Assembly (NCBI RefSeq): GCF_019659805.1
Contig: NZ_JAIFRO010000002.1
Location: 1 to 64,000, forward strand
From: Bartonella raoultii
GTDB lineage: Bacteria > Pseudomonadota > Alphaproteobacteria > Rhizobiales > Rhizobiaceae
Reading direction: 5' to 3'
DNA length: 64,000 nt
Shown piece after piece: positions 43,121-46,958 of the stretch. Position 1 is the first letter of the stretch; every line of letters begins with the position of its first letter. A model generated the notes under the pieces. That model searched no databases. It was given only the letters and a program-made list of their open reading frames with translations, and had not been told where the DNA came from. Position numbers and translations under genes: made by a program.

Positions 43121-44518
43121 TCATGAATGTGCAGAGGTATGGGAGTTAAAAAATGATATGATAACGTTTGCTAATTTTTGTGCCACTTGTTCTTTATGCA
43201 TATATGGCCATTTTTCAACATTTTCTTTACTAACGAGATAAACTTGGTTTGTATCAGCACCCATAACACTTGTCCCATCAGGAAGAAGAGAAATATTATT
43301 AGCAAGGATAAAGTTTGCCCCTTTTTTGATACATTTTTTTTGCGCATTGGCAATGATATCACAGGATTCAGCAGCAAAACCAATTACTAATGGAGGGCGA
43401 TTGGGAGCATGTCCGATTGTTGCTAAAATATCAGGATTTTCAACCATATGTAGGGATGGTGGTATTTTATAGGTACTTTTTTTGATTTTATGGGAAGATT
43501 GTGTTTGGCTGCGCCAATCACAAACGGCAGCGACAAAAAGAGCACCATCGGCAGGCAATGCGTCTTGAACAGCTTGTAACATCTGTTGTGCTGTTTCTAC
43601 ATGAATGGTTTTTACGCCTTGTGGGTCGGCAAGATTAACAGGGCCGCAAATAAGTGTCACTTTAGCGCCCAGATTTGCAAGAACTGCTGCAATGGCATGG
43701 CCCTGTTTACCTGAAGAACGATTAGCAAGATAACGTACAGGATCAATAGGTTCATAGGTAGGACCAGAGGTAACAATGAAATGACGACCAGACAGAGGCT
43801 TCTCATATACATTTAAAAGAGTTTCTATTGCTGCTACAATGGTTAGGGGTTCACTCATGCGTCCACATCCTATTTCGTCGCGTTCAGCCATTGTACCTAT
43901 TTCTGGTCCAATAATATGAATGCCATCTGCGCGTAGTTGTGTGATATTACGAACAGTGGCTGGATGAGTCCACATAGCTGGATTCATAGCTGGTGCAATT
44001 AAAAGTGGACAGCGTGCAGCTAAAAGCACACAGTTGGCTAAGTCATCTCCTATGCCATTAGCGATTTTGGCAATGCGATTCGCTGTAGCAGGCGCTAAAA
44101 TAATTAAGTCAGCATTACGTGCTAACCGGATATGTCCGATATCATGTTCTTCTTCGCGTGAAAATAAATTACTATATACCGTACCAGCGCTTAAAGCTTC
44201 AGCAGCCAAAGGCGTTATAAATTTTTGTGCTGCTTTTGTCATAATAATGTTTAAATGTGCTCCACGTTCTTGCAAACGGCGAATGAGATCAAGTGCTTTA
44301 TAAGCAGCAATACTTCCACCAATAATAAGAAGGAGAGATTTTGATTGCAGTGATTTCTCTTCAACAGGACTGGTTTGAGAAGTATGTATGGCTGAAGTTA
44401 GAGGGTTACTTAAAAGGCGCCGTGCTTCTTCTTCCATAGAAACGCCATTTCGCGCAGCACGTATACGCAAAGCTTCTTTAGCTTCAGGAGAAAGATTACG
44501 AATTGTAATACTAGCCAT
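43121..44518 (-). CDS. coaBC: Phosphopantothenoylcysteine decarboxylase/synthetase CoaBC with an N-terminal FitA-like ribbon-helix-helix domain
   Basis: A 465-residue fusion. Residues 1-40 (MASITIRNLSPEAKEALRIR start, then RNGVSMEEEARRLL) closely resemble the FitA/VapB-type ribbon-helix-helix antitoxin domain. A linker of about 20 residues follows. Residues about 61-240 are the FMN decarboxylase CoaC (IIGGSIAAYKAL, GHIRLARNADLIILAPATAN, PAMNPAMW). Residues about 245-460 are the CTP-dependent ligase CoaB (VTSGPTYEPIDPVRYLANRS, SGKQG). The E. coli ACGD loop reads AERDEIGCGRM here. No alternative start with a ribosome site lies between the domains, so the fusion is genuine in this frame. It makes 4'-phosphopantetheine for CoA. 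Confidence 0.9.
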   Translation of the reverse strand: MASITIRNLSPEAKEALRIRAARNGVSMEEEARRLLSNPLTSAIHTSQTSPVEEKSLQSKSLLLIIGGSIAAYKALDLIRRLQERGAHLNIIMTKAAQKFITPLAAEALSAGTVYSNLFSREEEHDIGHIRLARNADLIILAPATANRIAKIANGIGDDLANCVLLAARCPLLIAPAMNPAMWTHPATVRNITQLRADGIHIIGPEIGTMAERDEIGCGRMSEPLTIVAAIETLLNVYEKPLSGRHFIVTSGPTYEPIDPVRYLANRSSGKQGHAIAAVLANLGAKVTLICGPVNLADPQGVKTIHVETAQQMLQAVQDALPADGALFVAAVCDWRSQTQSSHKIKKSTYKIPPSLHMVENPDILATIGHAPNRPPLVIGFAAESCDIIANAQKKCIKKGANFILANNISLLPDGTSVMGADTNQVYLVSKENVEKWPYMHKEQVAQKLANVIISFFNSHTSAHS

Positions 44519-44586
44519 AAAATATATCCAACAAATAAAATGATATCAATGATTTCATTATTAATGTTTTTAGCATATTGAGCAGA

Positions 44587-46173
44587 TTAAAAAAGATGCA
44601 AAAGATAAAAAGTAAGACAAACACAACAAAGAGCAATAATAAAAAGGCTATAACGTCCATAACGGTTTGTACGGCTTTGTTCGACAGCAAGTTTTTTAAG
44701 GGTCGTAGGAGAAAGATTAAATCCTGTTTTTATTATTTGGTTAAGATCTTCTTCCATACGTTGAAAGTTTTGTATCAATTGCGGTGTTTTACGTGCAAGT
44801 GAAAGCAGTACTTGTGTTCCTTCACTAAAGTCTTTTGCAACTCCTATAGGTCCTAAATTTTTGCTAATCCATTCTTTAACAATGGGTTCAGAAGCTTTCC
44901 ACATATTAAAATGAGGATCTAATGTGCGAGCAACACCTTCTACGACAACCATTGTTTTTTGTAAGAGCAAAAGTTCAGGTCTTGTTTGCATATCAAACAA
45001 TTCAGTAACTTCAAATAACAGTGTGAGCAGTTTAGCCATAGAAATGCTTTGTGCTGATTGTCCATGGATTGGTTCCCCGATAGCGCGATTGGCTTGAGCA
45101 AAATTTTCAATATTGTGGTGTGGAGGGACATATCCAGCTTCAAAATGAGCACGTGCTACACGGTGGTAATCGCGGGTAATAAAGCCATAGAGGATTTCAG
45201 CAAGAAAATGTTTTTCTTTTTTTCCCAGTCGTCCTGTAATTCCTAGGTCAACAGCAACAATACATCCCTTTTTATCAACAAATAAATTACCAGGATGCAT
45301 ATCGGCATGAAAAAAGCCATCACGCAATGTATGACGAAGGAAAGATTGAATAAGCGTAATTGCAAGAGTTTTTAAATCGAATCCAGCTTCTTTGAGTGCA
45401 GAAACTTCAGATATTCTTATCCCGTCAATCCATTCCATTGTAAGAACATTTCGTCCTGTACGTTCCCAATCGATATGTGGAACCCGAAAACCTGTATCAT
45501 GTTGAATATTTTCTGCCATTTCAGATATAGCAGATGCTTCTAAACGCAAATCCATTTCAAGGCGTGTTGTTTGTGCCAAAGTGTCGACGACACAAACAGG
45601 ACGAAGCCTTCGAGAAGCAGGAATATAACGCTCTTGTAAATGAGCAATAAGATAGAAACTTCTTAGGTCTTTAGCAAAACGTGTTCTGATATCAGGACGT
45701 ATGACTTTAACAGCACATTTTTTTATATGACCGCTCTCATCATAATATTCTGCTGGATGAACTTGAGCAATAGAAGCAGCAGCAATAGGAGGATAAAAGT
45801 TTACGAATAAATCATTGAGAGGGCGGCCAAGAGAGTTTTCAATTTGAGCAATCGCGGCGGTACAAGAAAATGTCTGAACACGATCTTGTAATTGGACTAA
45901 ATCATCTGCAACATCACGTCCTACAATATCTGGTCTAGTAGCAAGAAATTGGCCAAGTTTTATGTAAGAAGGGCCCAATTTATTAATAGCATAGGAAATA
46001 TTTTCAGAACGTCGCTTTTTTTTTGTTTTGCGTCGCGCTAATACTCCTGCCATACGGTGACAGAATGCTGGAAACCCTCTAAGATCTTCGTGAGGAAGGG
46101 CACTTAAGACACCTTCACGCGCTAAAACCCATCCAGCACGTATTAATTGAAAATAAGTGGAAATTTGTACCAT
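44587..46173 (-). CDS. ubiB: UbiB-type ubiquinone biosynthesis ATPase/kinase
   Basis: Atypical kinase-like (ADCK/UbiB) protein needed for ubiquinone synthesis, about 528 residues from the ATG at 46173. The family KxGQ motif is in LGPSYIKLGQFLATRPD, the lysine in CAVKVIRPDI, and the metal site in FFHADMHPGNLFV and AVDLGITGR. Two C-terminal hydrophobic stretches (YSLFIIALCCVC and following) anchor it in the inner membrane. A TTG at 46188 is also in frame and would overlap ubiE by 13 bases; the ATG 2 bases after the ubiE stop is preferred. Confidence 0.93.
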   Translation of the reverse strand: MVQISTYFQLIRAGWVLAREGVLSALPHEDLRGFPAFCHRMAGVLARRKTKKKRRSENISYAINKLGPSYIKLGQFLATRPDIVGRDVADDLVQLQDRVQTFSCTAAIAQIENSLGRPLNDLFVNFYPPIAAASIAQVHPAEYYDESGHIKKCAVKVIRPDIRTRFAKDLRSFYLIAHLQERYIPASRRLRPVCVVDTLAQTTRLEMDLRLEASAISEMAENIQHDTGFRVPHIDWERTGRNVLTMEWIDGIRISEVSALKEAGFDLKTLAITLIQSFLRHTLRDGFFHADMHPGNLFVDKKGCIVAVDLGITGRLGKKEKHFLAEILYGFITRDYHRVARAHFEAGYVPPHHNIENFAQANRAIGEPIHGQSAQSISMAKLLTLLFEVTELFDMQTRPELLLLQKTMVVVEGVARTLDPHFNMWKASEPIVKEWISKNLGPIGVAKDFSEGTQVLLSLARKTPQLIQNFQRMEEDLNQIIKTGFNLSPTTLKKLAVEQSRTNRYGRYSLFIIALCCVCLTFYLLHLF

Positions 46174-46175
46174 TT

Positions 46176-46958
46176 TTAAATTTTCCAACCTGAATGTAAT
46201 GCTGCGATAGCACCAGTAAGATTGCGGTACGAGACTCGCGAAAAACCAGCATAATTGATCATATGGGCAAAATCATCCTGTTTAGGAAATTTACGAATAG
46301 ATTCAACCAAATAACGATAAGCATCACGATCATTTGCAATGAGTTGCCCAAGTTTTGGAATAGCATGAAAGGACCACAGGTCATAGATTTTGTCTAGAAA
46401 AGGCATTTCAACATTTGAAAATTCTAAACATAAGAAACGTCCTCCTGGCTTTAAAACACGAAAAGCTTCCCTCAAAGCTTTATCGATATGAGGTACATTG
46501 CGAATTCCAAAGGCAATCGTGTAAGCATCAAAGCTTTGATCTTCAAAAGGCAAATTTTCTGCATTGGCTTCAACAAAGTCAACCAGATGGGTCAGACCAT
46601 TTTTTTGTGCCCGCTTTTTGCCAATACTGAGCATTGAGCCATTAATATCTAAGACTGTAGCATGGGCTTTTTTGCGTGAAGCATTAAGAATACGAAAAGC
46701 AATATCTCCAGTACCACCTGCTACATCAAGAACTTTCCAATGGGTAAGGGCTGGTGGAGAAAGCCATGCAACCATGGAATTTTTCCACACTCGGTGCAAT
46801 CCTAATGATAAGATATCGTTCATCTTGTCATAATTTTCAGCAACAGAGTGAAATACACCGTCAACCATGGACTGTTTTTGTGCTTCATCAATTTTTGTAA
46901 AGCCAAAAGAGGACTCCATACCACCCTTGGCTCCTACGCGTTCTGTTTCAGCTGTCAT
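46176..46958 (-). CDS. ubiE: Ubiquinone/menaquinone biosynthesis C-methyltransferase
   Basis: SAM-dependent C-methyltransferase of the ubiquinone pathway, 260 residues from the ATG at 46958, which has AAGAAGG at good spacing. An upstream ATG (46994) lacks a ribosome site. Motif I is [14 protein letters not shown]; the UbiE signatures [17 protein letters not shown] and the C-terminal [18 protein letters not shown] are intact. ubiB follows directly, so the two form an operon. Confidence 0.95.

Follow-up and report, generated by a model that had tools for sequence, protein, structure and literature searches.

A FitA-like antitoxin domain fused to CoaBC in Bartonella raoultii and its relatives, and its probable role in autoregulation

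Why should an enzyme of coenzyme A (CoA) synthesis begin with the DNA-binding domain of an antitoxin? One gene raises this question in a 64,000-nucleotide stretch of Bartonella raoultii DNA (contig NZ_JAIFRO010000002.1, positions 1 to 64,000; hereafter the window), where a FitA-like ribbon-helix-helix (RHH) domain is joined in frame to CoaBC. The RHH is a captured antitoxin, and in other genera the toxin gene still stands between the antitoxin and coaBC; this origin was absent from the first-pass annotation of the window because seeing it needs relatives. From sequence comparison, we consider it likely that a toxin-antitoxin pair between ubiB and coaBC lost its PIN toxin, that its RHH was fused to CoaBC, and that the fusion protein still binds the inherited operator and thereby represses its own gene.

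The fusion gene and its domains

The window gene is one open frame on the minus strand. Residues 2-37 match PF22513 (FitA-like_RHH) with 58.7 bits against a cut-off of 27, and residues 58-453 match the CoaBC family TIGR00521 with 398.4 bits against a cut-off of 219.7, with both enzyme domains present. The in-frame union of an antitoxin-type RHH and a complete CoaBC, which the first-pass annotation had described, thus holds. Its parts are as follows.

43121..44518, minus strand: RHH-CoaBC fusion gene, 465 amino acids (open frame, Pfam, TIGR00521)
44405..44518, minus strand: FitA-like RHH domain, residues 1-38 (PF22513 over 2-37; FitA profile match; ratio of nonsynonymous to synonymous change, dN/dS, 0.150)
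44348..44404, minus strand: linker, residues 39-57 (fast-evolving, dN/dS 0.592; mostly predicted disordered; no ATG, GTG or TTG)
43826..44341, minus strand: CoaC flavoprotein domain, residues 60-231 (PF02441)
43232..43795, minus strand: CoaB (DFP) domain, residues 242-429 (PF04127)

Searched with a profile built from 15 RHH sequences, FitA as crystallised in FitAB (2h1o) matched with an E of 8e-9 and the Mnt repressor with an E of 1e-4. Structure prediction, which had been proposed as a test of the RHH assignment, agreed with it in part: the AlphaFold model of the fusion places helices at residues 11-24 and 28-37 and a mostly ordered core, with confidence (pLDDT) below 50 at residues 1-3 and 40-52, but the RHH strand is not visible in this monomer model, and a fold search with a 60-residue model ranked FitA first at a non-significant E of 1.2. 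The RHH assignment therefore relies on helix placement together with the sequence profiles.

No ATG, GTG or TTG occurs in codons 37-66 of the window gene, so that in the window's genome the two domains are not separated by any usual start codon, as the first-pass annotation had claimed; Met28 falls within the RHH. Of 30 Bartonella genes, 8 have a methionine at residue 54, close to where the ancestral CoaBC began, so a shorter second CoaBC product may be made from that position in some Bartonella. Across the window's genome (1.95 Mb in 30 contigs), the coaBC fusion is the single PF22513 match and PF01850 (PIN) has 0 matches, which extends the earlier remark that no PIN toxin lies nearby and leaves the genome without a detected toxin gene of a FitAB/VapBC module. 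The window linker had no match at E 0.05 to the 31 antitoxins of paired loci and hence no detectable toxin-binding tail, and PADLOC gave no result.

Intact pairs, decaying loci and fused genes across Rhizobiales

The gene upstream of the fusion provides a fixed point for comparing relatives.

44587..46188, minus strand: ubiB-like gene, same-strand neighbour upstream of the fusion gene

We take this gene to be ubiB from protein likeness and gene order. Searched with the window's protein, the neighbour was found upstream in fused, paired and plain loci alike, including all 31 paired loci and 98 of the 107 fused ones (repeats of one genome counted). Paired loci carry ubiB, RHH antitoxin, PIN toxin and coaBC in that order on a single strand, and sampled pair members pass PF22513 for the antitoxin and PF01850 for the toxin. 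The PIN gene and coaBC overlap, stop codon on assigned start, in 15 of 26 paired loci, and in 11 of these the overlap is 4 nt.

Arrangements that look like decay of such a pair also occur. L132 retains the RHH with a 23-residue PIN tail, L182 the RHH with the first residues of a PIN, and L154 and L193 a PIN tail alone. The clearest link between intact pair and fusion is L220, a fused locus whose linker matches antitoxin tails (E 3e-7, set of 31); its CoaBC shares 92.4% identity with the CoaBC of L221, a congeneric locus that retains the intact pair. An antitoxin match at E <=0.05 was obtained for only 3 of 107 linkers (L030, L220 and L261), and was clear only for L220. This genus (g98: L138/L221, L219, L220, L222 and L223) holds an intact pair plus differently linked fusions, which makes it suited to dating the transition from pair to fusion.

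The fusion is not unique to Bartonella but recurs across Rhizobiales, which answers the question of how widespread it is. CoaBC was present in 60 of 61 relatives and 198 of 199 genomes of the family. A census of upstream DNA, with one locus per genus for 81 of the family's 108 other genera (27 left out), found 20 genera fused, 21 with an intact RHH-PIN pair, 4 with remnants and 36 with neither; PIN genes were scored with two purpose-built profiles, and the intact-pair counts are lower bounds because divergent PIN genes can escape both. Within Bartonella, 31 of the 38 genomes met were read, of which 30 were fused and one was broken (G009, identified as B. bacilliformis by its match to named locus L048). 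Beyond the family, 9 of 10 genomes of family f35, probably Bradyrhizobium and kin (cf. the named metagenome-assembled genome [MAG] locus L063), were fused and 1 was plain; family f16 contains both a fused locus (L224) and a paired one (L353); and the pair was found in 4 of 10 loci read in family f34 (L338, L340, L346 and L299). Neither fusion nor pair was present when 19 families of the order, f16 included, were sampled at one locus each. Among 80 named loci picked by likeness to the window protein, 24 were fused, 3 paired and 53 neither (L048 counted as neither).

A CoaBC tree of 65 rows requires 16 changes of the fused state, at least 10 of them forced by supported branches, and the fused rows form one clade in 0 of 200 bootstrap trees; the rows were hand-chosen, the bootstrap was not settled and the change counts pool gains and losses. 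Supported branches of a 108-row tree force at least 8 changes of the fused state. In 61 genomes of family f1, at least 26 of 62 above-cut-off PF22513 matches sit at coaBC (23 by coordinates, plus L321, L324 and L331), as if the gap between ubiB and coaBC were a preferred site for this type of toxin-antitoxin pair.

A full-text search, with most subscription journals outside its coverage, found no report of an RHH-CoaBC fusion. A toxin-antitoxin survey (PMC2701414) uses none of the terms Dfp, CoaBC and pantothen in its main text, and the part of another paper available to us lists Brucella ovis CoaBC without an N-terminal domain (PMC9045290).

A putative operator that accompanies the RHH

Repeats of TGATTGCA/TGCAATCA are seen upstream of fused starts and define a putative 17-bp site, TGATNNCA-N-TGNNATCA, written as the 17-mer TGATNNCANTGNNATCA. 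The half-site TGATNNCA lies within 150 nt upstream of 39 of 41 fused genes in Bartonella, 42 of 43 in other genera and 10 of 10 of Bradyrhizobium type, and in 8 of 26 paired loci, compared with 6 of 150 upstream regions without RHH, for which shuffles give 7.3. When TGATNNCANTGNNATCA was allowed <=2 mismatches in 12 positions, it was found at 84 of 94 distinct fused genes (36/41 Bartonella, 38/43 other and 10/10 Bradyrhizobium-type) and 17 of 26 intact pairs, but at none of 150 coaBC genes for which no RHH was detected; shuffled upstreams of these groups reach this level in 0 to 1.2%. The site was also carried by 12 of 18 RHH antitoxin genes located away from coaBC. None of the 18 stretches fetched around these separate genes contained CoaBC, and 17 of the 18 had a PIN match downstream, one of them weak. 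The site thus goes with the RHH, not with coaBC.

The window contains the following candidate control elements.

44541..44557, minus strand: putative operator TGAAATCATTGATATCA (1/12 mismatch to TGATNNCANTGNNATCA; 39-23 nt before the ATG)
44521..44549, minus strand: promoter-like pair TTGATA-17-TATATT, overlapping the operator (weak, 3 found vs 1.2 expected, and proving nothing alone)

The site lies inside the 68-nt gap after ubiB, so that a candidate operator precedes the RHH as in FitAB/VapBC modules, judged by its sequence. In 19 Bartonella it is conserved above its flanks (0.954 vs 0.845, p 0.004), these sequences being related to one another. Half-sites resembling TGATAGCA are a feature of the gonococcal FitA operator. 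The first-pass suggestion that CoaBC could bind its own promoter gains indirect support from this family-typical site, which tracks the domain in relatives. Since the likely DNA target of the antitoxin still stands right before the enzyme gene, CoaBC probably regulates its own production.

A FitA/VapB-type pair sits between ubiB and coaBC in many Rhizobiales. We propose that in other lineages the PIN gene was lost and the N-terminal RHH of the antitoxin joined in frame to CoaBC, an order of events that we infer for most lineages. Within the CoaBC oligomer, the RHHs would pair into dimers and so recognise the operator inherited from the pair, a short way ahead of the start codon; plentiful CoaBC would then occupy the operator and lower, rather than activate, its own transcription. 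In FitAB, antitoxin dimers bind DNA through their RHHs and the toxin holds the assembly together, aiding binding, according to the part of the source available to us (PMC3920265). Mycobacterial CoaBC is described, in a source likewise available in part, as a dodecamer that CoA thioesters regulate (PMC7794376); an oligomer of the enzyme could thus stand in for the toxin in holding the DNA-bound assembly together. Any tuning might come from CoA, cytidine triphosphate (CTP), flavin mononucleotide (FMN) or substrate. We advance only tentatively, as a proposal about as apt to fail as to hold and perhaps a little more so, the fuller idea that CoaBC is a metabolite-responsive autorepressor that arose repeatedly, each time from a toxin-antitoxin pair upstream of an essential gene whose toxin died and whose antitoxin was welded to the enzyme.

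Two further arrangements were seen upstream of fused genes. Several of the genes among L228-L235 (family f35) have two neighbouring palindromes, for example TGATTGCACTGCAATCA and TGATAGCATCGCTATCA, leaving room for four RHH half-sites. In L114, L117, L119, L121, L251 and others, an extra half-site TGCAATCA overlaps the region right before the start codon, where it could affect translation too.

A different DNA-binding domain has also been joined to CoaBC. In L243, L246 and L334 (family f31, at least 2 genera), a Cro/C1-type helix-turn-helix (HTH) is fused in frame to the CoaBC N-terminus; the HTH_3 match reaches 35.2 bits for L246 and 26.8 for L243 (cut-off 23), and L334 was found with a purpose-built profile from these two. 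These fusions independently hint that CoaBC gains from a DNA-binding domain and suggest recurrent selection for CoaBC reading its own promoter. A search of 385 genomes of the class with L246 gave none starting in the HTH before residue 29 among the matches listed. HTH-like N-terminal extensions were also noticed on CoaBC of L071 (a Bauldia MAG, identical in sequence to L351; no Pfam match) and L083 (an alphaproteobacterial MAG; only sub-threshold matches). Upstream of L246 lies an inverted repeat (10-bp arms, one mismatch) and upstream of L083 a 14-bp palindrome, both only suggestive as operators; the same repeat rule found nothing upstream of L243, L334 and L071.

Weighing the explanations, and known systems compared

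Is the fused RHH put to use? When all pairs of 30 distinct Bartonella genes were pooled, dN/dS was 0.150 for the RHH, 0.133 for the enzyme core and 0.592 for the linker; in 74 close pairs, the values were 0.070, 0.107 and 0.738, respectively. All 30 genes share T5, R7 and N8 in the RHH strand. These values point to purifying selection on the RHH domain.

Several observations nonetheless weigh against autorepression through an inherited operator. B. bacilliformis does without an intact RHH: the RHH frame is broken and that of CoaBC still open. Upstream of this gene there is no TGATNNCA half-site and the best fit to the 17-mer has 3 mismatches; since 3 mismatches are also found upstream of 4 of 41 intact fused Bartonella genes, drift of the B. 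bacilliformis site is suggestive only. At the <=2-mismatch level, 9 of the 26 intact pairs are without the site, as are 6 of the 18 antitoxin genes located away from coaBC. In addition, the consensus was drawn from the first-seen fused and paired loci, leaving unused the antitoxin genes away from coaBC and most loci of Bradyrhizobium type, and the fused and paired site counts are therefore partly circular. A comparison that used the 108-row tree to control for relatedness had 7 independent pairs with branch support, of which ~5 were concordant and 0 discordant (median p 0.06).

The broken frame in B. bacilliformis would also be expected if the RHH were an idle vestige of the lost pair, kept since coaBC is translated through it, and its tree sister L028 fits this as well, with a lower RHH score (53.6 bits) and 5 mismatches in the site. 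However, RHH and enzyme have equal dN/dS whereas the adjoining linker drifts, and the site has been retained along with the domain, so we regard a vestige as unlikely. Selection on the domain could instead reflect a role confined to strengthening the CoaBC assembly, as RHHs dimerise and the mycobacterial enzyme is a dodecamer (PMC7794376, available to us in part), but this explanation, which we consider rather improbable, would account neither for the upstream site nor for the conserved T5, R7 and N8.

Autorepression confined to coaBC must also be set against control of a larger set of promoters. The window genome has 37 sites at <=3 mismatches (both strands, coaBC site included) vs 7 for the backwards pattern, an excess that such a wider regulator would produce. 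However, the coaBC site is the sole intergenic one at <=2 mismatches; the five other places at that level, tried as further operator targets, all lie within open reading frames and were rejected, making a wider regulator quite improbable. It is more improbable still that the fused RHH neutralises a PIN toxin encoded elsewhere: PIN toxins do exist in other genomes of the family, but neither a PIN domain in the window's genome nor an antitoxin tail in the window linker was detected.

If autorepression by a captured antitoxin is correct, this locus would provide a stepwise case, with intermediates still alive, of a selfish toxin-antitoxin pair being absorbed into a housekeeping enzyme, and would name a direct transcriptional control of CoA synthesis. 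The idea is testable in soil bacteria because close species differ in whether the toxin gene is still present or the fusion has formed.

Among known systems, FitAB/VapBC modules share with the window locus the RHH family, the type of upstream site and, in relatives, the place beside coaBC; the window differs in having neither toxin gene nor toxin-binding tail and in making the RHH part of an enzyme. The biotin ligase-repressor BirA is likewise a cofactor-pathway enzyme that also acts as a repressor, although its folds and pathway are different. Trifunctional PutA is a flavoenzyme whose N-terminal RHH represses its own regulon, and grafting this RHH onto a bifunctional PutA conferred DNA-binding properties, as described in the part of the source available to us (PMC5293562). 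Like PutA, RHH-CoaBC is a metabolic flavoenzyme with an N-terminal RHH, carrying DNA-binding domain and enzyme in one chain with a putative site at its own gene; unlike PutA, to which its enzyme is unrelated, it has an RHH of the FitA antitoxin type and makes CoA, and its repression is proposed from sequence. The best reading by analogy is thus that RHH-CoaBC would work like PutA without being its kin.
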